Part shown: positions 4,109-62,311 of the stretch, in pieces
Layout of the letters: the number at the start of each line of letters is the position of its first letter
How positions within the stretch are numbered: position 1 is the first letter of the stretch
DNA from: Chthonomonadales bacterium
GTDB taxonomy: Bacteria > Armatimonadota > Chthonomonadetes > Chthonomonadales > CAJBBX01
Direction: 5' to 3'
DNA: 64,000 nt
Assembly: GCA_027459625.1 (NCBI GenBank)
Contig: DAIDHP010000002.1
Coordinates: 1 to 64,000, forward strand
The notes under the pieces: model-generated
What the model saw: only the letters and a program-made list of their open reading frames with translations
What the model was told of the DNA's origin: nothing
Databases searched by the model: none
Translations under genes and position numbers: made by a program

Positions 4109-4323
4109 CCGTTCCTCCAGCCATCGTATCGGATATGCGCTTTTGCGCGCCATACAACCCATTCCGTGCATCGAAAATCTTTTTTCAGCGCAGCGAACCC
4201 TTTTTCTCCAACGAGAAAACTTGTTTTCGATACTCCTTGCGAAAAAAATCTCCCGATGCGCATGACAAGCCTCATTCCAAAGATAGCGGAGCTATCGCTC
4301 CTCGTGGTCGGATCTTTTGCGCC

Positions 4324-7300: not shown

Positions 7301-7509
7301 TCGTACCCCACGAGCAGGCGGCATTTGCTGTCGGGGGGCATGGCGTTAAGTTGCGCGACACCGTAAGCGTCAACGAATGCGACGGCGACATCCAAGCTTT
7401 TGGAATCCAGCAGGGCGTCGAGGGTGTCCTTCATGCGAACGCGATTGTTATCCACGATGAAGAGGTCCGTGGCATCGGTTGCGAAGGAGGAGCTATTCTT
7501 TTCAGTCAT
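4324..7509 (-). CDS. PLD-nuclease-like/SNF2-type helicase of a defence system
   Basis: This 1,061-residue protein couples a phospholipase D-type domain to a superfamily 2 helicase. The PLD part shows one HKD-like motif (HSKLYVNERIGVVGSSNLT, about residue 128). The helicase has Walker A DAVGLGKT (about 261-266), the DEAH box VDEAH (about 342), motif III TATPINNG, the SNF2-typical motif V STDVLSEGQNLQ and motif VI QRNGRIDR (about 755). This architecture is known from HepA/DISARM DrmD-like helicases next to large adenine methylases. Only one HKD motif is visible, so an active nuclease would need a dimer. The start has GAGGT eight bases upstream and a TATAAT box near 7565. DrmA, DrmB and DrmC homologues are absent here, so a complete DISARM is not shown. 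Confidence 0.88.
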   Translation of the reverse strand: MTEKNSSSFATDATDLFIVDNNRVRMKDTLDALLDSKSLDVAVAFVDAYGVAQLNAMPPDSKCRLLVGYDLSDMPQNNDVVTFQMAEEWRKSGLDPVHRVNDDETVFNAIAALERESLQAKRTALQTHSKLYVNERIGVVGSSNLTRSGIMGQRELNLIHQHPNAIAQLREWFQSNWDEASRAERSDFKNELVEWLRTNRLRRFAPFHPYAKAIFERYRSRFISLASSPSDINLAVFQEEGRETALGILAEHKCCIIADAVGLGKTYIALGAMQKRARNRKRSHKRVLVICPAQLESVWRRAANNQGIMIETESMETLGNQNGSGSERRLSELEDFALVIVDEAHNFRNPATNRFNSLMRILQGGPDDKETLFLTATPINNGIGDLYSLYRLMTRDQDDFFLNTNLRIRSLQEFFKRVEKGFVSTTDLLLETMVCRSRLDIRRRQENGETIIINDREVRFPNRKMISLEYRLGSDDETVDIDHIAKAIENLTLGAYNIEQYALVPDLQRNQTFMRLQTLFKMLLLKRLESSVISFVSTAENLRDFSRKVVEMLQKGRRLTADEYRRMQMTFARQLEDDDEGEGSAYLRDIGEKDASQYDIERLSNDVETDLRILSPLVNRIKRCLGGNDGKLRRLKVELCKLLPDQKALIFTSYSDTAEYLYRELTEDDEFLKRVSHARIEMIVGGVTSSEKNAIVQDFAPIANERKGPPERPIQCLISTDVLSEGQNLQDCGFLINYDLHFNPVRMIQRNGRIDRLFSEHESITIANFFPEGGLEEQLGLIERLQQRIATIQENMPVDASVIGEKVRVFSLEELRRTRSGDVTVLDAIDAENPINRFHDMLNEVIKMLQEFGIEEINRIPWGCQSNKRATYRGVFLCVAAGKTDDPIACWWLYYPLDSNDKDKSLPEPIQEPSRIIDLIRSSRPEREDDHHPDFSPRAIRWDIALEAKKRCREMLRELERSRDLGQVWSRTHINHKLISFFSAHGDGLEVNIEARLRRHSLERDKAEGERLLREATRSGNTSDLIAWMDEKLPQFQRRTENAETVPLTVAAYLELTPEAA

Positions 7510-8384: not shown

Positions 8385-10715
8385 ATGATAATTCGTCACG
8401 TCATTATTGTCGTATCGTTGCTCGCGGTTTCACGGGCGTTGGGGCAACAGACGCCCACGGGTCTCGCTCTGCCGCATACGGAGGCTGTGCGGGACGCGCT
8501 GACGTTTCCGGAGCCATCGCAGGTGCGAATAGGGGGCTTGCTCGGGTGGCCGTACGATATCAACGAGAGAAACCGGCTTCTTACGATCAGCGAATCCGAT
8601 CTTCTTTCGGGCTTCCAGCTTCGTCCGGGTTCGCAGGCGTGGATCGGGGAGCATATTGGGAAGTGGCTGCATGCGGCGTCGATCGTATGGGCGGCGACGA
8701 AGGATCCAAAGCTGCGAGCCAAGCTGGACCGCGTGGCTTCGGCGTTGATGGACACCCAGGAGCCCGACGGATACCTCGGAACCTACTCGCGCAATGAGCG
8801 ATTTGGATTATATCCCGGGGCGGAATGGGACGTTTGGGTGAACCGCTACTGCCTCACGGGCCTTTTGACCTACTATCAATACACCGGCGACCGCCGCGCC
8901 CTAAAATGCTGCGAAAAGATAGGAGACCTTCTTATCCGAACTTTCGGTCCCGGGAGGAGAAGCATTCTGTCAGCGGGAACGCACGACGGCATGGCTTCCA
9001 CCAGTGCGTTGGCGCCGATGCTGATGTTGTATCGAGCGACGGGCGACAAAAAATACCTGCAATTCGCAAAATACATCGTCTCCTCTTGGGAGGAACCCGG
9101 CGGACCGCAAATACTGAACAAACTGCTTCGAAAAACGCCGTTGAACGAAATAGGGGACGGCAAAGCCTACGAGATGGAGTTGAACCTGAACGGCATTTGC
9201 GAGCTTTATCGCGTGACTGGAGATCGGAAATACCTGGTAGCCGCATTGAACGCATGGAGGGACATCCGGGATAACCGCCTGTATATCACCGGAAGCGGAT
9301 CGATACGCGAATGCTGGGGCGGTGACCACGTTCTGCCGGATGACCAGAGCGACAACATCTGCGAAACATGCGTCACCGTCACTTGGATGCAGTTCAACAT
9401 GCAGTTGTTACGGCTCACGGGCGAGGCGAAGTTCGCGGATGAGTTGGAGAAGACCATTTACAATCATCTTCTCGCCGCTCAGAGCCCGCTCGGTTCCGAT
9501 TGGTGTTACTACACCTCCCTGGACGGTTTCAAGCCTTACGATTCCGCAATGACTTGCTGTCACTCCAGCGGACCGAGAGGAATCGCACTCATTCCTCTTG
9601 CCGCTTACGGCAGGGAGAGTTCTGCGATTGCGGTCAATCTCTACGTCCCCTCGACCTGTACGATCCCCATGGGATCAGGGAGCGTAATTTTGAAACAAGC
9701 GACGGATTATCCTCTCTCGGGAAGAGTAATTCTTTCCGTGAAGGGTCGAGGAATCCGCTCCCCTTTCACCCTGAAATTGCGCAAACCAGTTTGGTGCAGC
9801 GGGATGGAAGTCAAGTTGAATGGTCAAAAACTGGCGGCGACGATCAAAAACGGTTATTGGGAAATTCACCGGCATTGGGGGGATGAATCGAAATTGGAGA
9901 TCGGCTTTCCGATTACAGGGAAGTTGGTTCCGGGTCAATACGGCAACTCCGGGAGGGTGGCTGTTTGCTACGGCCCGCTGGTTTTGGCGTACGATCAAGG
10001 GTGGAACAACGATGTCCCGCCGATGCGAACAGCGATAGACATTCCCGCCTCATTCAAACATCGTTCGCAACCGATTAATATAAAGCCTCAAGGAGGCTGG
10101 AAAAATCCGGTTTTCGTCATCCAAGGGGAGCAGTTAACGGTGTCCGGCAGGCATCGCGCCGCTCTAAAGTTCGTCCCCTTCTACGCGGCGGGTGCGACCG
10201 GCAAAAGGTATTGCATCTGGATGCAACCCCCCCATACATTGAGATTGCGGCGAATCTCGCTGTTCTCTCAGGGAACCGCAACGCGATCCAGGGAGGGAAA
10301 TCGCACCGGAGATATTCGCAATCCCGCCCCCGGGGTTTTCGTGGTGACCTACGATGGCACCAAACAGGAACAAGACTGGTACGCCATCCGACTCGATTCC
10401 CCTGTGACCGTGAGCGAGATACGGTTTACGCAGGGCGGATTGTTTCACGATGGCGGATGGTTTGACACCACGGACGGCAAGCCAGTGATACAGATTCAAA
10501 AGGAGCCGGACGGATCGTGGGGCGACCTCGCCACTCTTGCCGAATACCCCTCGACCACCGCAGCAAACCCCGGCGACTTAAGAGAGGGCGAGAAGTTCCA
10601 TGTGGTTTTTCCGCCCGTTAGGATTTACGGTGTGCGCGTGATCGGGCGCCCCGCGTGCGGCGACAACCCCAATCAAAGTTTCAGTTCCTGCGAAGGGCTT
10701 GAGGGGTTTCAATAG
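8385..10715 (+). CDS. Secreted GH127 (DUF1680-type) beta-L-arabinofuranosidase
   Basis: The 776-residue product begins with a signal peptide (about residues 1-20, ending ...RALGQQ). It belongs to glycoside hydrolase family 127, which releases beta-linked L-arabinofuranose from plant glycans or hydroxyproline-linked arabinosides. The catalytic (alpha/alpha)6 barrel covers about 40-430. The E-x-C motif CETC (about 325-329) and the double Cys TCCHSSGPRG (about 390) match the family's zinc-binding glutamate and cysteines, one of which is the nucleophile. The C-terminal third is beta-rich, as in the family's jelly-roll domains, with an extra discoidin-like tail. The start has AGGGGG just upstream. 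It ends in a 7-bp convergent overlap with the next gene. Confidence 0.9.
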   Translation: MIIRHVIIVVSLLAVSRALGQQTPTGLALPHTEAVRDALTFPEPSQVRIGGLLGWPYDINERNRLLTISESDLLSGFQLRPGSQAWIGEHIGKWLHAASIVWAATKDPKLRAKLDRVASALMDTQEPDGYLGTYSRNERFGLYPGAEWDVWVNRYCLTGLLTYYQYTGDRRALKCCEKIGDLLIRTFGPGRRSILSAGTHDGMASTSALAPMLMLYRATGDKKYLQFAKYIVSSWEEPGGPQILNKLLRKTPLNEIGDGKAYEMELNLNGICELYRVTGDRKYLVAALNAWRDIRDNRLYITGSGSIRECWGGDHVLPDDQSDNICETCVTVTWMQFNMQLLRLTGEAKFADELEKTIYNHLLAAQSPLGSDWCYYTSLDGFKPYDSAMTCCHSSGPRGIALIPLAAYGRESSAIAVNLYVPSTCTIPMGSGSVILKQATDYPLSGRVILSVKGRGIRSPFTLKLRKPVWCSGMEVKLNGQKLAATIKNGYWEIHRHWGDESKLEIGFPITGKLVPGQYGNSGRVAVCYGPLVLAYDQGWNNDVPPMRTAIDIPASFKHRSQPINIKPQGGWKNPVFVIQGEQLTVSGRHRAALKFVPFYAAGATGKRYCIWMQPPHTLRLRRISLFSQGTATRSREGNRTGDIRNPAPGVFVVTYDGTKQEQDWYAIRLDSPVTVSEIRFTQGGLFHDGGWFDTTDGKPVIQIQKEPDGSWGDLATLAEYPSTTAANPGDLREGEKFHVVFPPVRIYGVRVIGRPACGDNPNQSFSSCEGLEGFQ

Positions 10716-13311: not shown

Positions 13312-16300
13312 ATGAAATCCTCTCGGGCTTGGTCCGTTGGGTCACGTATCTGTGTTCCCGCAATTATATTGATATTAGGTTTGGGATTCACGCAAGCTCG
13401 CGCCGATGATTCTACAACCACCGCCAGCCCGGCTTTGCAAAAGGAATATCGTTTCCTCTTCAACCAAGTCAATCCTGATTATTTGAAGCAAACCGTGGAC
13501 ACGCTAGCGTCGATGAAGTCGCGTGTCGCCGGTTACCCAGGTGACGCGGACGCTGCAAAGTACGTCGAGAATCAATTTCGCCAGATTGGCTTGTTGAACA
13601 TACGCACCGAGCCTTTTCCTGTCACGGTTCCCATGGACGAGGGCGACGCAAAAATCTCTCTTGTTTCCAATTCAGCGCTTCCCCAAGGCGGGGGGAAACC
13701 GAAAGCATCCGTCCCATCAAAATCCGCCATCCCATCCGCCCATCTTTATCCCCTCTGGCCCAATCTGGTTCGCACCTCTCAATTGCCGGAAGCCGGTCTG
13801 ACCGCTCCTCTAATCTACGTTGGAGACGGCAAACTCAGCAATTTCAACGGCAAAAACGTTGCAGGCAGCATCGTAATGGTGAATTTCAACAGCGGTTCCC
13901 AATGGCTGAACGCCCCAAGGCTGGGAGCCAAGGCTGTTATCTTTATAGAGCCGGATACCACCATGCGCGGGGAGGCGGAGGATAAGTTCATCTCAATCCC
14001 CATCGCCATACCTCGTTTCTGGTTGAAAAAATCCGAAGCCGCACCGTTTCTCGCAGCCGCGACTTTAGGCGACGCGACATGTCACATTCAATGCGACATG
14101 CCCTGGGTCACAAGGACGGCTTCCAACATCTTCGGAATGATCCCCGGAACCGATCCCGTGATGAGCAAGCAGATCATCGTAATCGAGGGATATTTTGATT
14201 CCATGTCCGTTGTACCCTCATTGGCTCCGGGAGCGGAAACATCGTGCGGGATCGCCAGTCTGCTCGATTTGGCGCGTATTTACAAGGCAAACCCGCCCAA
14301 GAGAACCGTTTGGTTCATCGCCACGGACGCCCATAACCTCGCGCTGCAGGGTATACGCGAATATTTGAATCAACACATGGATAATTGGATGGCTCCCAGC
14401 ATGCTGGAGAAGGCTGAATCCCGTCGGTATTCCTTGACCACCACCATTTGGCTTCTGGGCGTTTTGATCTTGCTCGTCATCTGGTTCCTCAACAGGGTGC
14501 TCAAATCGAAAAACGCGAAAGGATGGAAGAGGATCGACGCCGGATCATGGGTGCTCGCCTCGTTTATCATAATCCTTCTGTTTTTCAATATTGGATTTCA
14601 ATTCGTCAAAACAGACAATCCTCTGCGTCATCCGCATGAAATATATCTTTGGGCCGGGTTGGATCTCACTAGCCAATCTCGAGGTGTGGGGATTTTTTAC
14701 AAGGGTTGGTATATCGACTGCCGAGAGGATATTCAAAGCAAATTCTCCGATATCGCCCGAGTGTGCAGGGAGAATGCGGCGAAGATTGGGCAAACCCTCG
14801 GATTTGACAGCACGAACTATTTCGCGGACGGTGTGAACCCCATTGATGGCAAAAGCTGGAGAAACTTCATCCCCGGAAAGCCCGCGTTCGATTCCGAGAT
14901 TGTCACCATGGCGCAGGGGAATGGAATCACGTTCGCGACAACCGATGATTCCCGTGAGCTTGTGGACACCCCATTTGACACTGCAAATCACGTCAACATT
15001 GCTAATCTGGCGTTCCAGACAAAACTCCTCGCTTGCGAATTCTATAACATCCTTAATGATTCCAACGCTCCTGGCGACGTGAACGCTCAGCGCATGCCCA
15101 TAACCGATCCTTCGCAATGGTCACGAATGGCTCTTCAGGGCGGCTTCGCCACCGTCAAGGGACGAGTGACGATGTTCGATCCGAGGAAGAGTTTTATGGC
15201 TTATCCCGATCCGATCCTCGCCGGATCCCTGGCGGTGTTGAGAAACCGGGTGAAAACCTACATGGGGGTTCGCGCGGACATGGTGGAGGAGGTGAATCCG
15301 CCCGATTCGAAGCAAGGGGTTAATTCTTTCGCCTTCTACGGAATTCCGCCTCTTACAACATACGGCGGTCCGGCGACGATCAGAGTGGCGGCGTATCATT
15401 TGGACAGCCGGAGCTATGTGGAAGAGCGCGACCCCAACACGAACCAGGTCATTGAGAAAAATGGGAAGCCGGTGATGATCCCCAACCCCAACAAAGGGGA
15501 GATTAACTATGCTCCGGATCAAGGGGTGATGGGAGCCCAGTTCGAGCCTCTCGATATGAGCATCACCACCGCCACCAAGGTGATCTCAATCGTGGAATTT
15601 CGATGCGTGCCCACCGCCATTTACGATTTGGTGGACCAGCAATCCTTAAACGCATTGAATACGCTCACTATTTTGGATGGCACCACGAACGGTTCTCCGC
15701 GAATGTACGGATACGCATTCGACCCGCAGGATCCGGGTATGGTGGGTTCCTATGTCGAGGACATGGCGGTTATCTTCTCGCAGCCTGGCACGCGTTTGAA
15801 GATCATGATGGGGTATGGGCCTGCGAATACGAGCCTCCTTTTAATCAATCCGATTTACAACCCGAAGAAGCCGTTCGCGGCTTCGAACCAGGCGGATGGC
15901 ATCGGTTATCTTGTCGGAGGTAATCCCCACGAGGCGCAGGATGCCGAACTGATGACGATCACCCAGGAAAAATATGATCCAACCCGGGAGATCGCCAGGG
16001 GCGGAGCCATATACAACACCGCTCTGCATGTCGCCAAGGATATGTGGGCGTTGGACGATTTCCGTATTAAGCGTCTTGCGAAATACAGGATCATCAATCA
16101 AGGTATCAACTCCCTTCATAATCTCGCCGCTCAATACATAGCCAAAGCCGAACAGGATCAGAAGGAAAAGAACTGGGAGCTATTCGACGCCGATAGTCGT
16201 GCGGCTTGGGGGTTTGAATCCCGAGCGTACCCGGATGTCCAAGCCACGGCGGTGGATGTCGTGGAGGGGGTGCTTTTCTACCTGGCTCTGCTCATTCCAT

Positions 16301-18381
16301 TTGCATACTTCATGGAGCGTCTCATCTTCGGCTCCTATGATTTGAAACGGCAGTTAGGCTGGGCTTCGCTCATCTTCCTCGCCATCTTCCTGATATTCAC
16401 CCAGGTTCATCCGGCGTTTGAGATCACGATGAACCCAATCATCGTTTTGCTCGCGTTTATCATGCTGGCTCTCTCAAGCATCGTGATGATACTCATTACG
16501 GGCAAGTTCGAGGAGCAACTCAAGCAGATGAACAAGGAGATGTCCGGTGTGCACAAAGCGGATATCGGACGCGTCTCCGTCGCACTCGCCGCCTTCAATC
16601 TGGGGATATCGAACATGCGCCGTCGCAAGGCGCGAACCGTTCTGACATGCATCACTTTAATACTGCTCACTTTCACGGTTTTGTCATTCACTTCCGTTGT
16701 GCAGACAATGCGCTTTAATAAAGTCCCATCTCAGGGGATACCGCGATACAACGGCTTAATGATCCGCACCGCCATGTGGGATCCGCTTCAGAATCCGGCA
16801 TACACCGAGTTGAGCGATGAGTATGGAACCAAGTATCATGTGGCTCCTCGCGCATGGTTCTTCGGCACCCAGTTGGGCGAGCAATCCTTCCTAACCCTCA
16901 AACGAGCGGACAGGCATTATGATGCGAAGGCTCTTGTGGGGATGTCGCCCCAGGAGGCGTACATCACCCGACCGCAGGACGCATTAATCGCCGGTCGATG
17001 GTTCCAGAAGGGGGACACGTATGCAATCATCCTGCCGAGCAACATTGCCAACGCTCTAAGGATATCCACGAACGAGGTGGGCAAGGCCACGGTGACATAC
17101 GCCGGCGTGGATTACACTGTTATCGGCATCCTTGACAATCAGAAGTTAAAGAGGATTACCGACTTGGATAACGAGCCGATCACCCCCGTGGACTTTATCC
17201 TGATGCAGAAGCTAAACAATCAAGGGAAGGGCGGGAATAGTTCCGGTTTCCGTGAATACACTCACCTCGAGCCGGATTCGGTGTTTTTCATCCCATACCG
17301 CACCGCCACCGATCTCGGCGCCCAGTTGCGCTCAATCGCAATTGATTTCGGCAATCCGGACGTGGTGGCGCAGAAATTAGGCTTGTTGATGCCGCGCTTG
17401 GATTTGAACCTTTACGCCGGGCGAATCCCGACGAACGGAGAGCGACCGACTATCGTGCGCTACTCATCCATCGCCGCAACATCGAGCAAAGGCATGGAGT
17501 TGGTTTTCTTCCCGGTATTGATCGCGGCTCTGATCGTTCTGAACACGATGCTCGGTTCCGTTTTCGAGAGGGTGAAGGAGATACATATCTTCTCCTCCAT
17601 TGGATTGGCGCCTTCTCATATTGCGATGCTATTCATCGCGGAAGCCTTGGTGTACGCCATCATTGGGTCGGTCGCAGGCTATCTGCTGGGTCAGTTGGCA
17701 ACCAAAGTGCTTGTCCTAACCGGCACATTCCAAGGGCTCTATTTGAACTTCTCCTCGGTTTCAGCGGTGATGACGACAATGGTGGTGGTGACTGTGGTGC
17801 TTCTCTCAACGCTCTACCCTGCGAGGAAAGCCGCCGAAGTGGCGACGCCTGCGATAGATCGCACTTGGCGTGTGCCGGATCCCGACGGGGATGATTGGAC
17901 GATTCCGCTTCCCTTCGCCGTGACGGGCGAGCAAGCCACCGGTCTCAACTCTTTCCTCTCTGAATGGTTCGGAGCTTACGAGGAGTACAGTATCGGAGAT
18001 TTTGTCACCCAGGACGTGGAGACGGAGGAGTTTTTGGTGGATGTGTCATCGCTTATAAATCTTTCGAGGGTCAAGCTGGATGCCGATGAGATTCCGGAAA
18101 CGTTACCCGGATATCGCATTCACTCCATGTGCTGGCTGGCTCCGTTCGATCTGGGGGTAAGCCAAAAGGTAATGATAGAATCCGTTCCCACGGAGATGCT
18201 GGATGTGTATGAGATACGAGTGATAATCCACAGGGAAAGCGGCGATATTTCAAACTGGAAACGGGTGAATCGTAGGTTCCTTAACACCTTGCGGAAGCAA
18301 TTCCTGATTTGGAGGACATTAAAGCAAGGTGAGCGAGAGAGGTATATGACGGATAAAACGCAGCCTCAAGTCGCTGATTGA
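13312..18381 (+). CDS. Giant M28-peptidase-like/FtsX permease fusion
   Basis: A protein of about 1,689 residues. Order of parts: signal peptide (1-30, ...GFTQARA), peptidase M28-type lead region (about 40-150), PA-like insert (about 165-250), M28-like core (about 285-365), two membrane helices (about 375-435), a large extracytoplasmic region (about 440-980), three helices (about 985-1075), then an FtsX permease module with its first helix near 1110, an extracytoplasmic MacB-like region and three closing helices (about 1393-1505), and a soluble tail of about 180 residues. The M28 metal ligands look lost: the usual H-x-D reads GYFDS, D-D-N-x-S-G reads ETSCG, and the catalytic E-E reads DA. I infer a peptidase-derived, probably inactive binding domain feeding an ABC permease. 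I prefer the ATG at 13312 (GGAAAGGA upstream) to the in-frame GTG at 13294. It heads a run of seven genes ending with the cognate ATPase. Confidence 0.85.
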   Translation: MKSSRAWSVGSRICVPAIILILGLGFTQARADDSTTTASPALQKEYRFLFNQVNPDYLKQTVDTLASMKSRVAGYPGDADAAKYVENQFRQIGLLNIRTEPFPVTVPMDEGDAKISLVSNSALPQGGGKPKASVPSKSAIPSAHLYPLWPNLVRTSQLPEAGLTAPLIYVGDGKLSNFNGKNVAGSIVMVNFNSGSQWLNAPRLGAKAVIFIEPDTTMRGEAEDKFISIPIAIPRFWLKKSEAAPFLAAATLGDATCHIQCDMPWVTRTASNIFGMIPGTDPVMSKQIIVIEGYFDSMSVVPSLAPGAETSCGIASLLDLARIYKANPPKRTVWFIATDAHNLALQGIREYLNQHMDNWMAPSMLEKAESRRYSLTTTIWLLGVLILLVIWFLNRVLKSKNAKGWKRIDAGSWVLASFIIILLFFNIGFQFVKTDNPLRHPHEIYLWAGLDLTSQSRGVGIFYKGWYIDCREDIQSKFSDIARVCRENAAKIGQTLGFDSTNYFADGVNPIDGKSWRNFIPGKPAFDSEIVTMAQGNGITFATTDDSRELVDTPFDTANHVNIANLAFQTKLLACEFYNILNDSNAPGDVNAQRMPITDPSQWSRMALQGGFATVKGRVTMFDPRKSFMAYPDPILAGSLAVLRNRVKTYMGVRADMVEEVNPPDSKQGVNSFAFYGIPPLTTYGGPATIRVAAYHLDSRSYVEERDPNTNQVIEKNGKPVMIPNPNKGEINYAPDQGVMGAQFEPLDMSITTATKVISIVEFRCVPTAIYDLVDQQSLNALNTLTILDGTTNGSPRMYGYAFDPQDPGMVGSYVEDMAVIFSQPGTRLKIMMGYGPANTSLLLINPIYNPKKPFAASNQADGIGYLVGGNPHEAQDAELMTITQEKYDPTREIARGGAIYNTALHVAKDMWALDDFRIKRLAKYRIINQGINSLHNLAAQYIAKAEQDQKEKNWELFDADSRAAWGFESRAYPDVQATAVDVVEGVLFYLALLIPFAYFMERLIFGSYDLKRQLGWASLIFLAIFLIFTQVHPAFEITMNPIIVLLAFIMLALSSIVMILITGKFEEQLKQMNKEMSGVHKADIGRVSVALAAFNLGISNMRRRKARTVLTCITLILLTFTVLSFTSVVQTMRFNKVPSQGIPRYNGLMIRTAMWDPLQNPAYTELSDEYGTKYHVAPRAWFFGTQLGEQSFLTLKRADRHYDAKALVGMSPQEAYITRPQDALIAGRWFQKGDTYAIILPSNIANALRISTNEVGKATVTYAGVDYTVIGILDNQKLKRITDLDNEPITPVDFILMQKLNNQGKGGNSSGFREYTHLEPDSVFFIPYRTATDLGAQLRSIAIDFGNPDVVAQKLGLLMPRLDLNLYAGRIPTNGERPTIVRYSSIAATSSKGMELVFFPVLIAALIVLNTMLGSVFERVKEIHIFSSIGLAPSHIAMLFIAEALVYAIIGSVAGYLLGQLATKVLVLTGTFQGLYLNFSSVSAVMTTMVVVTVVLLSTLYPARKAAEVATPAIDRTWRVPDPDGDDWTIPLPFAVTGEQATGLNSFLSEWFGAYEEYSIGDFVTQDVETEEFLVDVSSLINLSRVKLDADEIPETLPGYRIHSMCWLAPFDLGVSQKVMIESVPTEMLDVYEIRVIIHRESGDISNWKRVNRRFLNTLRKQFLIWRTLKQGERERYMTDKTQPQVAD

Positions 18382-18586
18382 TACAAATCCTCGGCTGTCG
18401 CGAACGAATCGTTGCCGCATGGCTCATTGGAAATCTTCGCGAGTTTGCAATAGCCGGTCTCATTCCGTTTTATTTCGCTGGTAACAGATGGTATTGTTGT
18501 GTTTTTATATTCAGTAAGAAGGGTAAATTTCAGGAGCCAATACCTTTCGCCATAGGAGAGGATCCTGAAGGAAGGAGGACGCACGC

Positions 18587-20623
18587 TTGGCAATGGATGA
18601 TGTCGCCCGTGCAAGGGCGCAAGTGGAAATATCCTCAGTTGAAGAAGGCGCTGAAGGGCAAGCGGTAAAGTTCGAAGAGGGCTTTACGGCTAAAACCATT
18701 GTAGGCGCCCTGTTCGTTGGCTTCATCATGCTTCCCGGCGCACTCTATCTGGGGTTGGTTGCCGGTCAGGGATTGGGGCCTGCCGCGGAATGGGTTACAA
18801 TAGTCCTTTTCGCGGAGGTGATGCGACGTTCCTTCCTACCCATGAAACGTCAGGAAGTGTATATTCTCTATTATGTCGCCGCGATGCTATCCAACGTCGT
18901 GCTGGCGGATAGAGGGATATCGGGAGGGCCGTTCGGATATCTCATCTGGAATCAGTATTTCCGCACCGCTCCTCAGGCCGGGATGATCGCAAAGGAGATT
19001 CCCAACTGGGTCGTTCCACCTGCAGGATCGGCGGCGCTCACGGAACGAACGTTCTTGAACATGGCATGGGCGGTGCCTATCCTTTTGCTTGTCACCAACG
19101 AGATACTTGGGCGATTAAACTGGATGAGCATGGGGTATATGCTCTTTCGTGCGACTTCCGATGTTGAAAGATTGCCTTTCCCGATGGCTCCCGTAGCCGC
19201 TTCCGGCGCCACTGCTTTGGCCGAGGCAGCGACCAAGGAGGAATCCTGGAGATGGAAAGTGTTCTCCATCGGATCGGTGATCGGAATGGTGTTCGGATTT
19301 TTCTACGTGGCGATACCCGTTTTCACCGGTGTGGTTTTCGGGACGGCGCTCACGCTCATTCCGATTCCTTTCTTTGATTTAAACAATAACACCGATTCCA
19401 TCCTGCACGGGGCTCTCGCATGCGTTTCCGGCGACTTAGGCAAATTGCTTGCAGGGTTCGTCATACCCTATCCGATAGTGGCGGGCGGGGCTCTTGGAGC
19501 GATACTTGCAAGAGTTTTTCCGATGCCTAATATTCTCTACGCGGTTGGAGCGTACGGTAATGGCTCCAATGGCGGATGGACCAGAGGCATGGATTGCATT
19601 CTCACCCGCCAGGTTACGGATATCAAATTCTGGCTTTCAATAGGTATCGGCTTGCAAATCGCCATCGCCATCATTGGACTCGGCGCGGTTGTGAAAGCAA
19701 TGATGGATATGAAAAAGGAGATGGCTAATCGCGGGTCTCGGCCTGAGTTGCCTAAGGGAAGAGGGGATATAAATATCCTAATTCCATTGGTGGTTTGGAT
19801 AACGGTCACGATATTTTATATCTGCCTCACACAATACCTTTTGGCGTTGGATGGGCACGCAGGGCAGTTCCCATGGTGGCTCCTGATCTTCTTCGGTCTC
19901 ATATTCACTCCGTTAAACTCATTCGTTAGCGCTCGAATGATGGGGCTTACCGGGAGCGGCGTTACTTTCCCCTTCCTGATACAAGCGACCGTTATGAAGT
20001 CGGGATATCCCCATGTGGATATCTGGTACGCCCCGATACCGTTGAACGATTACGGCCCCTTGGCGCAAAAATTCAGGGAGGTGGAACTGACCGGGACGAA
20101 ATTCGGAAGTATTGTGAAAACGGAATTCTTTGTTTTGCCGATCTTCCTGCTTTCCTCCTTCATCTTCTGGGCGTTTTTCTGGCATACGACCGCCATACCG
20201 TCGTCCCAGCAGCCCTACGCTCAAAAGTTCTGGCCGCTTGTCGCCACATTCCAAGCGATGTTCCAAACCATCAACAAGCCTAATGGACCTAAATGGGTGT
20301 TGGAGGGCATCAACGTGTCGCGCATTGCCGCCGGAACCGTCGTGGGGCTAGCGTTGTATGGAATAATGTATGCGTTTCGGGTTCCAGTGCTCTTCTATTA
20401 CGGATTCATAGGAGGCACAAGCGCGTGGCCGGGAGACGCCGTAATGACGTTCATTGGCGCATGGCTCGGCAAACGTTACTTTGAGAAGCGATTCGGCATG
20501 GATCAGTGGCGAATGTACTCTCCGGTTCTGCTCGCAGGTTTCTCGTGCGGCACGGGATTGATCGCCATGGCGGCTATCGCTCTGGCTTTAATCGCCAAGT
20601 CCATAAACTATCTGCCTTTCTAG
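18587..20623 (+). CDS. OPT-superfamily-like multi-pass transporter
   Basis: The 678-residue protein is almost entirely hydrophobic helices (about 14), with a short acidic cytoplasmic N-terminus (about 1-30). Glycine-rich helix turns such as PYPIVAGGALGAILARVFP, GAYGNGSNGGW and FVSARMMGLTGSG resemble the oligopeptide/siderophore transporter (OPT) superfamily, which takes up peptides or metal chelates. No substrate can be read from sequence. A GGAGG sits exactly eight bases before the TTG at 18587, so I take that as the start; the ATG two codons later would be too far from it. It follows the M28-like/FtsX gene after 205 bp and may share its transcript, which hints at a peptide or peptide-metal substrate. 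Confidence 0.75.
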   Translation: MAMDDVARARAQVEISSVEEGAEGQAVKFEEGFTAKTIVGALFVGFIMLPGALYLGLVAGQGLGPAAEWVTIVLFAEVMRRSFLPMKRQEVYILYYVAAMLSNVVLADRGISGGPFGYLIWNQYFRTAPQAGMIAKEIPNWVVPPAGSAALTERTFLNMAWAVPILLLVTNEILGRLNWMSMGYMLFRATSDVERLPFPMAPVAASGATALAEAATKEESWRWKVFSIGSVIGMVFGFFYVAIPVFTGVVFGTALTLIPIPFFDLNNNTDSILHGALACVSGDLGKLLAGFVIPYPIVAGGALGAILARVFPMPNILYAVGAYGNGSNGGWTRGMDCILTRQVTDIKFWLSIGIGLQIAIAIIGLGAVVKAMMDMKKEMANRGSRPELPKGRGDINILIPLVVWITVTIFYICLTQYLLALDGHAGQFPWWLLIFFGLIFTPLNSFVSARMMGLTGSGVTFPFLIQATVMKSGYPHVDIWYAPIPLNDYGPLAQKFREVELTGTKFGSIVKTEFFVLPIFLLSSFIFWAFFWHTTAIPSSQQPYAQKFWPLVATFQAMFQTINKPNGPKWVLEGINVSRIAAGTVVGLALYGIMYAFRVPVLFYYGFIGGTSAWPGDAVMTFIGAWLGKRYFEKRFGMDQWRMYSPVLLAGFSCGTGLIAMAAIALALIAKSINYLPF

Positions 20624-20676
20624 GGAGGATTCCGTGTGAAATTCCCCGGTATGGGAGTTTCGTTTGATTAATATGT

Positions 20677-21489
20677 ATGAACCAAAATAACCAACAACCA
20701 AAAAACGATTCATTTCTTTCCGCCCTTGGATGGTCCAGCTTCGTATCGTTGGCTTTGAGTCCGTTCCTCTTTATTGCACCGATATTCGCGGGCTATCTTG
20801 GCGGAAAGAAAGCCAAGGATACGCCATGGAAAGCGATCGCGGCGGTTGCCATACCCGCAGCCATCTGGTGGGGGGTGTTCGTATATCTCTCAACATTTCA
20901 AGTGAAAGGCACCACTTTAGGCATCCTTACTTTTCTTGGTCCTATAACCGCCTTGGGGTTGTTCGGCGGTGCGTTGCTTGGGATTAAGGGCAAAGGATAC
21001 AATATTGCGGGGATTTTTCTTGTAGGAATTGGGATCGGCTACATCATACCCAGAGCGCAGGCGATAGACGCCATCATGCAAATCATGCGCCCGGTGAAGG
21101 TCCAAAAGACATCGTCATCCACTGCGAGTTGTCCGAAAGACCTTAAGAAACTGTATGACGCCATGATGAATTACGCGCAATCCTGGGATGACACTCTGCC
21201 TCCGGCGAATCGCTGGGGTACGGCAATTACGGATCCGATGCAGGCATTCGCGGATCCATTGTTGCTTAAATGTCCGAACGCAACGCAGTACGGATACGCC
21301 ATGAACTCCGCCGTGGGTGGGAAGAGGTTGGAATCGATTAAGAACAAAGCAATAACTCCTTTGTTGTATGATTCCTCCGATCTGAAATTGAACGCGAATG
21401 ACGACGTTAAAAGTCTTCCCGTGCCTGGGAGACATGACGGGCAAAACTATATTATCTATATGGACGGGCATGTGGATGCCAAGCCTTAA
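20677..21489 (+). CDS. Membrane protein with C-terminal H-X9-DG (prepilin-like) domain
   Basis: The 270-residue product has four hydrophobic helices in its N-terminal half (about 20-130) and a soluble C-terminal domain (about 145-270). The tail carries H-D-G-Q-N-Y-I-I-Y-M-D-G, an exact H-X9-DG motif as in DUF1559-type prepilin-like proteins of Planctomycetes and Armatimonadota, together with the familiar upstream pattern L-Y-D-A-M-x-x-Y and CPN...YGYAMNS. The usual type II secretion N-terminal cleavage helix is missing; the domain is attached to a multi-helix membrane module instead. The Shine-Dalgarno site is poor. Function unknown; its place inside the ABC cluster suggests a partner of the exporter. 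Confidence 0.7.
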   Translation: MNQNNQQPKNDSFLSALGWSSFVSLALSPFLFIAPIFAGYLGGKKAKDTPWKAIAAVAIPAAIWWGVFVYLSTFQVKGTTLGILTFLGPITALGLFGGALLGIKGKGYNIAGIFLVGIGIGYIIPRAQAIDAIMQIMRPVKVQKTSSSTASCPKDLKKLYDAMMNYAQSWDDTLPPANRWGTAITDPMQAFADPLLLKCPNATQYGYAMNSAVGGKRLESIKNKAITPLLYDSSDLKLNANDDVKSLPVPGRHDGQNYIIYMDGHVDAKP

Positions 21490-21565
21490 CGCCACGCTGA
21501 ATCAGACTGGAACATTACTGATTTGCGTTATTTGAATTGACTAAACGTGGAATATCGGAGATTAG

Positions 21566-22600
21566 ATGGCTGTATCGTCCTTAAAGACTAACATGAGCGA
21601 AGTGTCGGGACCGAGAACTTTGATCGGATGGCATGGTGTTCGTTTCACTTTACCGCCCGATTGGAATTTAATGACCTATTCACTGGATCCGAGCGAAGGA
21701 TACCTTAAGGTGGATTCCCCGGATAACAGCATGTTTGTCCAAGTGAAATGGTCCCGTCCCACGGTAAAGCCCGCTCGCAGCTTGGCTGGCATGACGATGA
21801 ATTTCATTCGTAAATACGCTATGAAGCCGGTTGTCGACACTTCCGAGCCGGATCTCAAACAGATTTTGGATAATTTTCTTAAAAGCGCGGAGAAAAAAAC
21901 CAAGAAAACAAAAACCTCTTTTGATTGCAAAGTCAAACCAAGATCGGAGGAGGCGAATGGCGTTCGCGTTGGACATCCGTTCAGTTGGTCCGGGGGCGGA
22001 TATGGCCAAGGGAAAATATGGCACTGCAAGGAGTGCGGAAAGGTCGTAATCGCCCAAGTCGTCGGACAGAACCGGGACGAGGTGGGGAAGGTAGCGGCTG
22101 CGCTTCTGAGTGATTTTCACGACCACAGCGAGGGCGGTTGGGATGTCTGGGCTTTCTATGATCTCGTGGCGAGCATTCCATCCGAATATCGACTTGCGAA
22201 TCAGAGGTTGCATTTCGGTCAACTGAGATTGGAGTTTGACAAACCCGGCGGGGATAAGATCATTCTCGACAGATGGGGTCTGGCGGACGTTTTAAAGAAG
22301 CGTGTCCCCATAGAGGAGTGGTTTTACAACACCTATGATCTGAAGCGAACCAAAATGCAAAAAGAGCAGATGCAAGTTCAGGGGCATTCGGCGTATAGAG
22401 TGAAGCGTAAAATACGAAACCCTCTTGATTTGCTGAGAATTTACAAGGATGCAGGTCTCTCCATGCGTCCGGCGCATTATTACGACACCTGCTGCTGGGA
22501 ATGCGAGGAGACCAACAAAATATACGCCATTCAAGTGTGGCATAACAGGACGATTCAAGGTGTATTGGAGAGTGTGGCGGAGCGGTGTGAATGTCACTGA
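21566..22600 (+). CDS. Uncharacterised soluble protein with two CxxC pairs
   Basis: I do not recognise this 344-residue family. It opens with a beta-rich part (WHGVRFTLPPDWNLMTYSLD, then DSPDNSMFVQVKW) resembling small lipocalin- or PsbP-like folds, which recurs weakly at about 210-235 (PSEYRLANQRLHFGQLRLEF). CKEC at about 154-157 and CWEC at about 313-316 could together bind one zinc ion. There is no signal peptide or membrane helix. GGAG lies six bases before the ATG, and the 3' end overlaps the PqqD-like gene by 10 bases, so the two are probably made together and may act together. Confidence 0.6.
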   Translation: MAVSSLKTNMSEVSGPRTLIGWHGVRFTLPPDWNLMTYSLDPSEGYLKVDSPDNSMFVQVKWSRPTVKPARSLAGMTMNFIRKYAMKPVVDTSEPDLKQILDNFLKSAEKKTKKTKTSFDCKVKPRSEEANGVRVGHPFSWSGGGYGQGKIWHCKECGKVVIAQVVGQNRDEVGKVAAALLSDFHDHSEGGWDVWAFYDLVASIPSEYRLANQRLHFGQLRLEFDKPGGDKIILDRWGLADVLKKRVPIEEWFYNTYDLKRTKMQKEQMQVQGHSAYRVKRKIRNPLDLLRIYKDAGLSMRPAHYYDTCCWECEETNKIYAIQVWHNRTIQGVLESVAERCECH

Positions 22601-23013
22601 GCCAGAAAATTCGTAATTTTGCGGGAAAAAACCTTCCGTTTCTCCGAATGAGACCCGCTATGGAGAAATCGCGTATCATGTCTTTGCGACCTGTGCGTCA
22701 TTCGGCGATTGAATGGGAGCAAAATGACGATTTTACAATCCTAAGGATACCAAACCGAAAGGACAAGCTGGGGAAGATCATGACGCTTTGGTTCAGAATG
22801 CCGGAAACTCGCGCGGTTGAGCTTGATGAACTCGGCTCCTTTGTATGGGGGATGTGCGACGGGGAGAATACGGTGGATAAGATCATAAAAAGTGTCAGTG
22901 CGCGATACAAACTGAATCGCAGGGAGGTCGAAATGTCGGTAGCGACCTATTTGCAGATGCTCGCCGATCGTAATTTCATAGGTTTCTTCGAGCGAGGAGG
23001 AAAGACCACATGA
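22591..23013 (+). CDS. PqqD-like (RiPP recognition element type) protein
   Basis: A 140-residue protein whose last 90 residues match the PqqD winged-helix pattern: a strand-strand start (VELDELGSFVWGMCDGENTVDKII) followed by a helix (RYKLNRREVEMSVATYLQMLADRNFIGF). In known systems such domains bind leader peptides for modification or export. No radical SAM enzyme, cyclase or obvious precursor peptide lies nearby. The start overlaps the unknown protein by 10 bases and the end overlaps the FtsX gene by four (ATGA), so all three are translationally coupled. A role in presenting a peptide substrate to the ABC system is inference. Confidence 0.7.
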   Translation: MSLSQKIRNFAGKNLPFLRMRPAMEKSRIMSLRPVRHSAIEWEQNDDFTILRIPNRKDKLGKIMTLWFRMPETRAVELDELGSFVWGMCDGENTVDKIIKSVSARYKLNRREVEMSVATYLQMLADRNFIGFFERGGKTT

Positions 23014-23750
23014 GCGTGGATAAACCGAGTGCACATATGTCCCACAAAGAGGTGAGACAGCAGATTAAACTGCCTTTTTCCAAAGCGGTGGAGATTAGCC
23101 TCAGGAGCATAAAGATCCGATTTGCTCGCTCTATCATCACTGCGGCGGGGATCATGCTGGGGATAGCGTTTTTCGCATCGGTGAGAATGTCCGCCGAGTT
23201 CAGCGTGATACATGAAAAGATCGTCCACGAGACCGTGGCTGCGTTCCAAGCGGGAAAACTGCATCATATCACCGAGGATCAAACGCGCATGATCTCATCC
23301 GCCACCACGGATGTCAAGGCGGCGCAGCAGGATGCACTCGCCGCCAGAGAGCGGCTGGATTGGTTATCCATTATGGCTCTTATTGTCTGCACCGTTGGCA
23401 TTACCAATGCGATGCTGATGTCCGTAACGGAGAGATACAAGGAGATTGGCACCATGAAATGTCTTGGCGCTCTCGATTCATTCATCGTCAAGCTTTTCTT
23501 TATTGAATCCTGCCTGACGGGATTCATCTCTTCGGTGATTGGTTTTCTGTTGGGGTGGTTCATTATATCCCTGGTTCATATCTTCACCGATGGTATGCTG
23601 GCTTTTGGAGCACAGTACTGGAAGTCATCGCTCACGCTATTCGGTTTATCCGTTTTAATTGGCACATTTTTAACATTTATTGCTACAATAGCCCCTGCGG
23701 TTCGCGCGGCTCAGATGCCTCCCGCCGCTGCGTTGCGGGTGGAAATATAA
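23010..23750 (+). CDS. Short FtsX-family ABC permease
   Basis: At 246 residues this is a minimal FtsX permease with one helix near residues 35-60 (ARSIITAAGIMLGIAFF), a short extracytoplasmic loop of only about 55 residues, and three closing helices with the typical cytoplasmic turn ITNAMLMSVTERYKEIGTMKCLGA (about 130-155). That turn is the coupling element to a LolD/MacB-type ATPase, which is the next gene. LolC or MacB relatives normally carry 200 or more residues in the loop, so this subunit lacks a substrate domain; the giant fusion at 13312 could supply it. GAGGAGG precedes the ATG, which overlaps the upstream stop. Confidence 0.82.
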   Translation: MSVDKPSAHMSHKEVRQQIKLPFSKAVEISLRSIKIRFARSIITAAGIMLGIAFFASVRMSAEFSVIHEKIVHETVAAFQAGKLHHITEDQTRMISSATTDVKAAQQDALAARERLDWLSIMALIVCTVGITNAMLMSVTERYKEIGTMKCLGALDSFIVKLFFIESCLTGFISSVIGFLLGWFIISLVHIFTDGMLAFGAQYWKSSLTLFGLSVLIGTFLTFIATIAPAVRAAQMPPAAALRVEI

Positions 23751-23768
23751 CGAGAAAGGACGCTAAGC

Positions 23769-24512
23769 ATGGACGCCAATGAATATGTAGTTCGCACGAA
23801 AGGTCTTGTCAAGGAATACACCATGGGTGACCAAACGCTTCGCGCCCTGAACGGTGTGGATCTGGATATATATCGAGGGGAGTATATTTCCATCATGGGA
23901 CCCTCCGGTTCCGGCAAGTCCACGCTCTTCAACGCGATCGGAGGGTTGGATAAGCCCACCTCCGGATCGGTTTTTATCAACGATGTGGATATGGCGCAAC
24001 TGGACGCTCAGGAGCTTGCCTATCTAAGATGCCATACGATCGGATATATATTCCAAACATTCAACCTTATCCCGGTTATGACCGCTCTCGAGAATGTGAC
24101 CCTTCCGACAATCTTCGCCGGTATGTCAACCGATGACGGTATTGAGAGAGGCATGGAGCTATTGAAGATCGTGGGATTGGATCAGCGACTTCATCATAAA
24201 CCATTTGAACTTTCAGGCGGGCAACAGCAACGCGTCGCCATCGCCCGCGCCTTGGCGAACAATCCCTCCATTATTCTCGCGGACGAGCCTACGGGCAACT
24301 TGGACTTGAAAACCGGTCAGGAGATCATCGCCCTGTTAAAGCGATTGAATGTGGAGCAGGGAGTTACGATCATCTCCGCCACTCATGACTTAAAGATGCT
24401 TGATATCTCCGATCGCATTGTTTGGATTCGTGACGGCAGGATAGATAAGCTTGAGGAACGCAAGAACATTGAACTTAAAATGGGTGAGATGGAAGGCGAA
24501 CCGGTTCATTAA
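23769..24512 (+). CDS. ABC transporter ATP-binding protein (LolD/MacB type)
   Basis: The 247-residue ATPase has Walker [10 protein letters not shown] (about 44-52), Q-loop IFQTFNL, signature [15 protein letters not shown] (about 150), Walker [12 protein letters not shown] (about 175) and the switch histidine in [10 protein letters not shown]. This is the subfamily that drives mechanotransmission by FtsX-type permeases (LolCDE, MacAB, FtsEX). GAAAGGA lies upstream of the ATG, 18 bases after the short permease. As the only ATPase in the cluster it probably serves both FtsX proteins, forming an asymmetric complex with the giant fusion. Confidence 0.93.
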
Positions 24513-25891: not shown

Positions 25892-26126
25892 AACGAACTC
25901 CTCTCTATCAAACGGCGGTTACCACTGCCTATGATTGGAAGTGGATGAATAGTCATTTCAGTTTGATGCATTTATCCTTCAGCATGATTATTATATTACA
26001 TGCAAAAATATTGTTCGCTGATGTATCGTTAACTTGCCGGGACTGATGATGAAGTATATTACGCCTATTTATGGTAACGTATTCACACGATCCATTCAAC
26101 CACTTGAAAAGGACATTCACCGAACC

Positions 26127-28937
26127 ATGATCACATCAACATTACTCATTTCCGCCGCCCTCATCGCGCTTGCGCCCATGGCATCCTCCGCTGCGGCGGC
26201 ACAGAAGGACGCGTTATTTCAGAGGCTTGATAAGTTTAACGTGGTGTGGACCTCCCCAAGCGCGGATGCTTCAGGCTCCATGCCGCTCGGCAACGGAGAG
26301 GTTGGGATTAACCTATGGGCTGAGAAAAACGGAGCGATCTATTTTTACATCAGCAGAAGCGACTCCCTAAGCGAGATTGCGAGACTTGTCAAGGTGGGGG
26401 GAATGAAGATCAACATTCACCCGAATCCTCTTGCGAACGCTGCGCCTTTTAAACAGACGCTTATTCTTAAGGATGGCGTTTGCAGAATCGTAATGGGGTC
26501 TGGAAGAAGCAAAGTGGTGTTGAAGATATTTGTGGATGCGGATAACCCGGTTATCTATTGCTTGGGGAGTTCCGCCTCGCCCGTATCTGTCACTGCTTCG
26601 GCTCTCTGCTGGAGAACGGAGCGGCGTGAGATCACCGGCGGAGAACAGAACTCCGCATGGACAATGCAAGGGGTGCCGTTCCCTCTTTATGAATCGGCGG
26701 ATGTGTTTCCAAACGACACCGGTGACGCTTTGGTGTGGTTCCATCGCGATGATAAAAAAGATGAGACGGCTTTTCCATCAACGATGGAACTCCAGGGATT
26801 GAAGTCCTTGGAAGGCACAGTGCATGATCCGCTTTTGGACAGGACATTTGGAGGATGGGTGGTTGGCGACGGCTTCAAAGCGACTCAGGGGCGCACCATC
26901 GAAACACGCAAGGATGTGCGGAGTTTCGTCCTGCGAGTGGCGACTCCCTGCGCACAGACCGCCACCGCTAGGGACTGGATGCGTATGGCGCGTAAAATCG
27001 CCGAGAATTCGGCGGACTATGTCACGGCGCTGAAAAGAACCGAGGCATGGTGGAATAGCTATTGGCGCCGTTCCTGGGTGTTCGTGGATAAAATCGGCAA
27101 CACGCGGATGGAGGTCCCCGGCGCCGATCATCCCCTAAGGGTGGGGTACGATTCCAATGATCAAAATCATTTTCCCGGGGAGATGAATCACGTATTGGTT
27201 TATGACAGACCTCTTTCCACCAAGAATGTGGCATTGATCGCTCAAAATCCCGGTAATGACCTAAAACTGAAAGGTCTGCTTTGGCAAGGAGATGGTTCCA
27301 GACAGGAGATCGGTAGTGGCGCGTTGAATTTCTCAAAAGGCTTCACACTCGACGCATGGATTAAACCCGACGGAACGGGAGTGGGACGTATCTTTGACAA
27401 GCTTACCGCAGGGCAACAGGATGGATTTCTGTTCGACATATATCCTGTGAACACTTTGAGGCTGATTATCGGCGAATTGCAGTTGCAATCCCATAATAAC
27501 GCTTTGGCACCAGGCAAATGGCAAAATGTCGCCGCCACCTTCGATACGAAAACAGGGGTCGCGGCAATCTATTTGGACGGAAAGCTGGCAAGCCATTCCT
27601 CCGCCACGGCAACTCCGGATATGATCAGCAGAGGATATCTTCTGCAGAATTACGTTCAAGCCTGCGGCGGAAGAGGAAACTACCCCATCAAGTTTAACGG
27701 CGGGATATTCACCGTGGAACCGAAGGCGATGGGCAGACCTTACGATCCGGATTGGCGCGCATGGGGGGAGTGTTACTGGTGGCAGAACACGCGCCACATG
27801 TATCATCCGATGCTCGCAGCAGGGGATTACGAGATGATGGAACCGCTTTTCAAAATGTATGAGGATGTGGTTCCGCTCGCTGAGGCTCGCTCGAAAATCT
27901 ATTATGATGCATCGGGAATCTACTTCCCGGAAACGATGACCGCTTGGGGAACCTACTCCAATTCGGATTACGGTTGGAACCATAACGGAAAGGCTCCCGG
28001 AGATATCCAAAGCCCCTGGTGGAGATACGCTTGGAATCAGGGTCCGGAACTTGTCGCGCTGATGCTAGATCGCTGGGATTACACACAGGATCCGGTATTC
28101 CTGAAGAGTCAACTCTTGCCCATGGCGGTGCAGGTTCTGAAATACTTCGACACCCGTTTCAAAAAAGACTCAAACGGAAAAATTATTCTCGACCCGGATC
28201 AGGCGATTGAGACCTACTGGACGGGAGTGATCAATGACACGCCCGATGTGGCGGGTTTGATAGACATTACCAGGCGTTTGTGCGAATTGCCGAAAAAATA
28301 CGTCGCCCCGGAAGAACGCAAATTCTTTCTGTATATGAAGGACGCTTGCCCTTCAATTCCCACGGAAGAGGCGACAGTGGATGGGCATACCGTGCGTATT
28401 ATCTCCCCTGCGGAGAAATACGACAAACACACCACTAATTGCGAGAACCCGGAATTATATGCGGTGTGGCCATTCCGGCTATTCGGAGTGGGCAGACCCG
28501 GATTGGAGATGGCGCGTGAGACTTACGCTCATCGACTTTTCCATCTGTATGTTGGCTGGGGATACGATGGAAACTGCGCCGCATTGCTGGGAATGCGAGA
28601 TGAAGCCGCCAAGATTTTAAAGATCAAATGCGAGAATTCCAATCCGGCTTATCGCTGGCCCGCCACATGGGGGCCCAATTTCGATTGGCTTCCGGATCAA
28701 AATCATGGAGGCAACCTTTTGGAAACCACTCAGTTGATGCTGCTCCAGGGACTGGGTCGTAAAATTCTGCTGCTTCCCGCTTGGCCTCATGACTGGGATG
28801 TGGACTTCAAGCTGCACGCCCCCTATCGAACGACGGTGGAGTGTAGTTACCGCAATGGAAAGATAGTGAAGTTAATTGTGACACCGAAATCCCGAAGGAA
28901 GGACGTGGTGGATATGAGCCATCGGTCCAAACTGTGA
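26127..28937 (+). CDS. Secreted DUF5703/GH95-like glycoside hydrolase with LamG insert
   Basis: About 936 residues with a signal peptide (MITSTLLISAALIALAP...). The N-terminal part begins FNVVWTSPSADASGSMPLGNGEVGINLW, the DUF5703 pattern that is related to the N-terminal domain of GH95 alpha-L-fucosidases. A LamG/concanavalin-like domain of about 170 residues (GFTLDAWIKPDGTG ... WQNVAATFDTKTGVAAIYLDGKLA, about 375-540) interrupts the chain before the (alpha/alpha)6 catalytic region, and a beta domain closes the protein. The substrate is not readable; a plant or algal polysaccharide is likely. An in-frame start exists at 26034, but only the ATG at 26127 puts a signal peptide at the N-terminus. 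Confidence 0.82.
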   Translation: MITSTLLISAALIALAPMASSAAAAQKDALFQRLDKFNVVWTSPSADASGSMPLGNGEVGINLWAEKNGAIYFYISRSDSLSEIARLVKVGGMKINIHPNPLANAAPFKQTLILKDGVCRIVMGSGRSKVVLKIFVDADNPVIYCLGSSASPVSVTASALCWRTERREITGGEQNSAWTMQGVPFPLYESADVFPNDTGDALVWFHRDDKKDETAFPSTMELQGLKSLEGTVHDPLLDRTFGGWVVGDGFKATQGRTIETRKDVRSFVLRVATPCAQTATARDWMRMARKIAENSADYVTALKRTEAWWNSYWRRSWVFVDKIGNTRMEVPGADHPLRVGYDSNDQNHFPGEMNHVLVYDRPLSTKNVALIAQNPGNDLKLKGLLWQGDGSRQEIGSGALNFSKGFTLDAWIKPDGTGVGRIFDKLTAGQQDGFLFDIYPVNTLRLIIGELQLQSHNNALAPGKWQNVAATFDTKTGVAAIYLDGKLASHSSATATPDMISRGYLLQNYVQACGGRGNYPIKFNGGIFTVEPKAMGRPYDPDWRAWGECYWWQNTRHMYHPMLAAGDYEMMEPLFKMYEDVVPLAEARSKIYYDASGIYFPETMTAWGTYSNSDYGWNHNGKAPGDIQSPWWRYAWNQGPELVALMLDRWDYTQDPVFLKSQLLPMAVQVLKYFDTRFKKDSNGKIILDPDQAIETYWTGVINDTPDVAGLIDITRRLCELPKKYVAPEERKFFLYMKDACPSIPTEEATVDGHTVRIISPAEKYDKHTTNCENPELYAVWPFRLFGVGRPGLEMARETYAHRLFHLYVGWGYDGNCAALLGMRDEAAKILKIKCENSNPAYRWPATWGPNFDWLPDQNHGGNLLETTQLMLLQGLGRKILLLPAWPHDWDVDFKLHAPYRTTVECSYRNGKIVKLIVTPKSRRKDVVDMSHRSKL

Positions 28938-60375: not shown

Positions 60376-60478
60376 ACATCTCCCGAGGAAGATATCTCAG
60401 CCTCAGGAGACAATCCCTAACCTGGCATAACCAGAACCAAAGAGGAAATTCGGCTCCGGTGTCGTAATTAGTTATATA

Positions 60479-60511
60479 ACACATTTGCCCAGTGGCATAT
60501 CTGAAATGTGT
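60479..60511. repeat. Inverted repeat in the AT-rich gap
   Basis: ACACATTT (60479-60486) is the reverse complement of AAATGTGT (60504-60511), with 17 bases between. It lies in the 227-bp gap 60376-60602, which otherwise holds only AT-rich sequence. A possible weak terminator or operator, uncertain. Confidence 0.35.
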
Positions 60512-60602
60512 GATATTTAAAATACGAATTAAAAGATTCATATAGTTTGGTATTTATTCGGAATGTTCACGTTGATGTAATACGATTAAAAAATAAACAA
60601 AG

Positions 60603-62268: not shown

Positions 62269-62311
62269 TATCTTCAAATATTAAGCTAAATACTCAATCA
62301 GGAGGAATAAA

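Follow-up and report, generated by a model that had tools for sequence, protein, structure and literature searches.

A conserved, apparently undescribed ABC-type gene cluster of Armatimonadota that is kept or lost together with the DUF6785 membrane protein family

The window, which is the whole stretch of 64,000 nucleotides analyzed here, comes from a Chthonomonadales bacterium (contig DAIDHP010000002.1). Positions 13312 to 24512 carry seven open reading frames, A to G, all confirmed on the plus strand at the place given by a first-pass annotation made from the sequence alone:

13312..18381, plus strand: gene A, giant permease of 1689 aa, with a signal/TM segment, a PA-M28-like ectodomain with an inserted two-TM hairpin, a beta-rich ectodomain, three TM helices, a MacB_PCD plus FtsX core, and a conserved cytosolic tail
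18587..20623, plus strand: gene B, OPT-fold membrane protein of 678 aa, mostly single copy
20677..21489, plus strand: gene C, membrane protein with an H-X9-DG pseudopilin-type tail, recognized in Chthonomonadales clusters only
21566..22600, plus strand: gene D, soluble protein with repeated CxxC-type segments (C154-x-x-C157; W311-x-C313), belonging to no known family
22591..23013, plus strand: gene E, PqqD-like winged-helix protein, overlapping D and F
23010..23750, plus strand: gene F, short FtsX permease that lacks a large extracytoplasmic domain
23769..24512, plus strand: gene G, LolD/MacB-class ABC ATPase

The intergenic gaps measure 205 bp (A-B), 53 bp (B-C), 76 bp (C-D), and 18 bp (F-G). 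Overlaps had been described as several; they exist, and they number two, D/E (22591-22600) and E/F (23010-23013, ATGA). The family labels proposed earlier for A, E, F, and G were borne out, with Pfam matches of A to M28 (3.5e-7), MacB_PCD (2.5e-6), and FtsX (6e-14), of E to PqqD (1.7e-11), and of F to FtsX (1.4e-19), and with G being LolD/MacB-like. B, C, and D gave no confident Pfam family and no NCBIfam match.

The reading frame of A opens with a GTG at 13294, and the ATG at 13312 is the preferred start, with a better-placed GGAAAGGA upstream. The following parts of the protein were delimited:

14125..14379, plus strand: core of the M28-like domain of A (residues 272-356), with degenerate metal-binding/catalytic positions (YxDS, GAE-x-x-C-G, and A-H replacing HxDS, GA-x-D, and E-E)
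16636..17145, plus strand: MacB_PCD-like extracytoplasmic domain of A (Pfam)
17506..17835, plus strand: FtsX permease core of A, TM2-4 (Pfam and PDB matches)
17854..18378, plus strand: conserved cytosolic C-terminal tail of A, with P-F-D-x-G-V-S and R-Q-x-L-x-W-R motifs and without a Pfam family

The N-terminal 1051 residues gave a good model (pLDDT 85, pTM 0.82) that matches the PA-containing M28 aminopeptidases 2ek8 and 6hc6 (BSAP), a family also matched by the sequence profile (1.8e-23); the M28 fold matches nicalin as well (E 2e-10). Fold and PA insertion are common to A, these aminopeptidases, and the pseudo-M28 proteins nicalin, nicastrin, and transferrin receptor. Unlike them, A combines loss of the catalytic residues with a TM hairpin within the domain, indicated by hydropathy and by the long helices of the model (residues 340-374 and 386-407), and with fusion to an ABC permease. 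The E-E pair is replaced in 29 of 29 sequences and YxDS stands for HxDS in nearly all of them, the first histidine being retained in a single relative (L108). A thus has the fold of the M28 family and lacks its zinc ligands and catalytic glutamate, and we rejected an active peptidase because these residues are absent. The C-terminal half is a MacB/LolC-type core, with PDB matches to MacB, LolF, and LolC, in which MacB_PCD is followed by FtsX and the helices lie at 1118 and 1403-1507; hydropathy places the tail in the cytosol. Among relatives of A, one carries an F5/8 type C (galactose-binding-like) domain, the A of L107 has extra sequence and reaches 2094 aa, and at G128:C1:860958-863082 the giant gene is found in two ORFs with the break within the permease core, by a frameshift or a true split.

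For B, a phmmer search returned nothing convincing, and the Pfam OPT family (PF03169) was matched by 6 of 45 relatives, at best with 6e-10. The AF2 model of B (pLDDT 83, pTM 0.83) has the OPT fold: its only sound PDB match in Foldseek is the barley OPT/YSL transporter YS1 (7wst/7wsr; E 1e-10, prob 1.0, TM 0.58-0.64), which shares the fold over nearly the whole length of B. These two lines of evidence uphold the OPT label that B had been given. In contrast to YS1, to which it is about 12% identical, B is found nearly always in genomes that encode the ABC permease A, mostly as a single copy.

C had been called prepilin-like, and this stands for its H-X9-DG tail, in which H253 and D263-G264 are invariant among relatives; the rest of the protein, which has membrane helices, lacks the N-terminal methylation motif and matches neither the Pfam prepilin N-methylation family nor any NCBIfam model. 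A PDB sequence search with D found nothing convincing. The best PDB match of E is TbiB1, a lasso-peptide protein (1.7e-7); E has its PqqD domain in common with PqqD/RiPP recognition element proteins, and differs in its context, an ABC permease and an ATPase with no RiPP genes seen. F has only a short loop where A has its extracytoplasmic domain. G matches LolD (2e-70) and MacB (5e-67) in NCBIfam and ABC_tran in Pfam. Two hallmarks of type VII ABC systems are therefore present, a LolD/MacB-class ATPase (G) and an FtsX permease with an extracytoplasmic domain between TM1 and TM2 (A).

The genes are neighbors in relatives, as the earlier reading of the locus as one system presupposed. The order A-B-C-D-E-F-G is kept in 19 of 40 relatives, with more loci cut by contig ends, and E was matched in 39 of 41 genomes, the genome of the window included. 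So many recurrences of one seven-gene arrangement are far from what chance would produce, and the arrangement is conserved throughout the order Chthonomonadales. Such conservation is striking given the scattered operons for which Chthonomonas calidirosea is known (PMC4959169). Six genomes outside the order have A-B-D-E-F-G without C. The H-X9-DG gene thus goes with the ABC genes in Chthonomonadales clusters and was not found in these clusters of other classes; C was therefore rejected as a core part and is a local addition.

Scanning GTDB genomes with B yielded at least 538 relatives, of which 80 loci were taken. By record titles, which can be wrong for metagenome-assembled genomes, the relatives are mainly Armatimonadota, and others are Hydrogenedentota, Desantisbacteria, Latescibacterota, Hinthialibacteria, Omnitrophota, and Planctomycetota; Abditibacteria are counted within the window's phylum in the genome collection used. 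A match to A was present at 52 of the 80 loci and adjoins B in most. The earlier reading would have been refuted by an OPT gene always separate from the ABC genes; B instead adjoins the giant permease well outside the order. Where B stood apart from A (22 genomes), A was found elsewhere in 21, the exception being a 2.2-Mb genome (G042). In 14 further genomes, F was present in all 14 and E in 11, mostly as E-F-G or D-E-F-G. These recurring arrangements suggest two modules, A-B and (D)E-F-G, joined here in one neighborhood. E was not found in small genomes of a second phylum where A, B, and F are retained, and E and D are hence not core in those genomes. The first-pass annotation knew of no described counterpart to the cluster, and we likewise found none in the open-access literature searched.

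The strongest clue to function lies outside the window, in exact co-occurrence with DUF6785 (PF20581), a separate multi-copy family that reaches 28 copies in relatives. The genome of the window has 9 copies, none of them within the window, and 14 control genomes gave no match. The DUF6785-DUF6784 family (PF20581/PF20580) is uncharacterized, and no paper on it was found in the open-access literature searched. We sampled 121 Armatimonadota genomes, each at least 85% complete, using the C-terminal alignment of A as the query for that gene. A and B were each present in 99, F was present in 98, and DUF6785 was present in 100. Jointly, 100 of the 121 genomes have the system (A, B, F, and DUF6785) and 21 are without all four, the last genome of the unlisted remainder being assigned from the tallies. 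Among the genomes with the system, one shows no A, and there B begins near a contig start with F beside it (G118); one shows no B, and there A lies at a contig end (G162); and two show no F match, with A and B present (G005 and G138). The absences are spread across six families (f5, f8, f15, f16, f20, and f33), and presence is mixed within four of them (f8, f15, f16, and f20) and within two genera (g32 and g64). Shuffling labels within families gave p = 3e-9 for the exact coincidence, an indicative value since family members are still related. A, B, F, and DUF6785 are thus kept or lost together, with repeated independent losses. The co-loss is not the work of one deletion, because presence varies within families and genera and because several genomes have the genes dispersed; G132, a complete genome, has A, B, and F far apart at 0.78, 1.03, and 2.52 Mb. 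In the second phylum, under the same filter, A and DUF6785 are present in 20 of 20 genomes. Co-occurrence of this kind shows dependence, and neither contact nor mechanism.

Genomes with more copies of A also have more of B, with two of each in at least 9 genomes and three of each in two (G095 and G100), and F is single in nearly all genomes, including nearly all where A and B are duplicated. A 5.23-Mb single-contig genome (G157) has a single copy each of A, B, F, and DUF6785. DUF6785 itself is a remote homolog of B (hhalign E 4e-5, prob 70%; best hmmsearch E 3e-7) with the same phylogenetic distribution and is sometimes beside A, a DUF6785-DUF6784 gene lying directly or closely upstream of A at five loci (L108, L111, L112, L126, and L131). 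It differs from B in being multi-copy and dispersed. We rejected treating the two as one family, the relation being only remote, and the DUF6785 family does not match the B of the window, which makes the B and DUF6785 counts independent. Several DUF6785 genes in this genome adjoin genes for alpha-galactosidase, GH5, PfkB and ROK kinases, and putative glycoside hydrolases, and one copy is near an NlpC/P60 gene. In a matched comparison, with lists cut at 25 families, GH43 occurred in 3 of 74 DUF6785 neighbors and was not among the families listed for the 74 controls, a weak enrichment. At most, the gene neighbors hint at sugar substrates. At L225 and L227, DUF6785 genes occur as tandem or nearby pairs, which suggests recent duplication or two-subunit use. 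A DUF6785 copy in the same genome (L229:3526-5532) lies beside a type ISP restriction-type enzyme gene (L229:5713-8907).

The genes make up one conserved, apparently undescribed ABC-type envelope system, in which the ABC part is of a known class and the architecture and the tie to OPT-like proteins are new. With the type VII systems LolCDE, MacAB-TolC, FtsEX-EnvC, YbbAP-TesA, and BceAB, the cluster shares a LolD/MacB-class ATPase, an FtsX-type topology, and a MacB-like extracytoplasmic domain. It is unlike them in its very unequal permease halves, the dead PA-M28 ectodomain, the conserved cytosolic tail, the OPT-fold protein, the PqqD-like and CxxC proteins, and the co-loss with DUF6785. Our leading interpretation, to which we give not quite even chances, is an asymmetric type VII (MacB/LolCDE/FtsEX-class) ABC machine that works with membrane proteins of the OPT superfamily, perhaps as a common engine or as an assembly factor for them. 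By homology, a pair of G ATPases would power a permease made of one A half and one F half. ATP-driven mechanotransmission has been described for type VII systems (PMC5985334, PMC12646458), and by analogy cytosolic ATP hydrolysis may move the helices and the large ectodomain of A. The dead PA-M28 fold, pinned to the membrane by its TM hairpin, would be a binding or docking module rather than a protease, B would be a dedicated OPT-fold partner of A in a putative physical A-F-G-B complex, and E and D may be cytosolic accessories, perhaps docking on the tail of A. The dispersed DUF6785 proteins would be the variable, substrate-specific clients of this single engine and might take up varied nutrients, possibly oligosaccharides.

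A more specific version, which we put forward as possible but on balance doubtful, holds that this one ABC machine is the power source or the gate for an entire family of OPT-like transporters, a type VII engine with a dead peptidase ectodomain serving dispersed, substrate-specific OPT-fold clients in several phyla. TonB-ExbBD, which powers many outer-membrane transporters, offers an analogy for one engine with many transporters; to our knowledge, there is no precedent for OPT-type (secondary) transporters being driven by an ABC engine.

The main rival is that the ABC machine is a biogenesis factor for multipass proteins of the OPT-like kind (DUF6785 and B), inserting them, folding them, or controlling their quality rather than powering transport. 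The co-loss would be explained equally well, a single machine with many clients would be natural, and the dead M28 ectodomain of A resembles nicalin, a pseudo-M28 protein that forms part of the multipass translocon of eukaryotes. However, nicalin matches in the M28 fold only and is outscored by active M28 enzymes. We know of no type VII ABC system that inserts membrane proteins, and bacteria with ordinary OPT proteins live without such a machine; we consider biogenesis unlikely. It is quite improbable, in our judgment, that the cluster is an envelope remodeler resembling FtsEX or YbbAP-TesA, with the ectodomain controlling a cell wall or lipid enzyme and DUF6785 co-occurring because both suit one envelope type. 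Type VII systems do often command periplasmic enzymes, as YbbAP-TesA does (PMC12646458), and the NlpC/P60 gene near one DUF6785 copy would fit, but the conserved cluster is without a hydrolase, the M28 fold of A is dead, and co-loss within genera would be unexpected from a change of envelope type.

The first-pass annotation had favored export of peptides or lipoproteins, and neither form was supported. As one possible lipoprotein system, we considered A and F as the unequal LolC and LolE, and G as the LolD, of a LolCDE-like release system of these phyla. G is indeed closest to LolD (236.7 bits), and the cores of A and F are of the LolC/MacB type, yet all three fall far below the equivalog cutoffs (307.75 for LolD; A with 20.8 and F with 40.5, against 362 for LolCE). 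Lipoprotein release is expected to be essential in diderms, whereas 21 of the 121 largely complete genomes lack this system, which falls short of near-universal retention. Other FtsX permeases of 400 to 470 aa are present in the genomes checked, and the DUF6785 linkage would be left unexplained. Given the missed cutoffs and the dispensability of the system, we rejected a LolCDE identity, which we regard as very improbable. The least probable reading is a locus for export of RiPPs or other peptides in which E binds a leader peptide. E is a true relative of the PqqD fold, as its TbiB1 match indicates, and OPT proteins are peptide-type carriers. On the other hand, no precursor ORF was seen in the cluster gaps, and no maturation gene, whether for a radical SAM protein or a peptidase, was among the scanned window neighbors, so that the PqqD/RRE domain of E stands without a nearby precursor and modifying enzyme among the cluster and scanned window genes. 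The M28 domain of A has lost its catalytic residues in all 29 sequences, some genomes that have the other genes of the system yielded no E, and the system is kept as a phylum-wide core, mostly in single copy, unlike RiPP loci. With no precursor or maturation gene seen, a RiPP locus was rejected.

As a dependence among genes, the association brings together DUF6785, a large family with up to tens of copies per genome, and seven hypothetical proteins as one testable system. The four families concerned occur in most Armatimonadota genomes and in genomes labeled as other phyla, and their function is undescribed. If the ABC part powers or assembles OPT-like proteins, it would represent a new way of running transporters and might shed light on the feeding of these scavengers of carbohydrates.

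Elsewhere in the window, glycoside hydrolase genes lie around the cluster at 8385-10715, 26034-28937, and 43049-45973 (GH127, GH95-like with DUF5703, and GH38). On the minus strand at 920-7509, an Eco57I/MmeI-type methylase gene and a helicase-PLD nuclease gene stand side by side and probably form a restriction or defense pair. The segment from 60000 to 64000 has a GC content of 33-38%, compared with about 50% elsewhere, carries an ORF for a DUF2079-like membrane protein, and may be an island.
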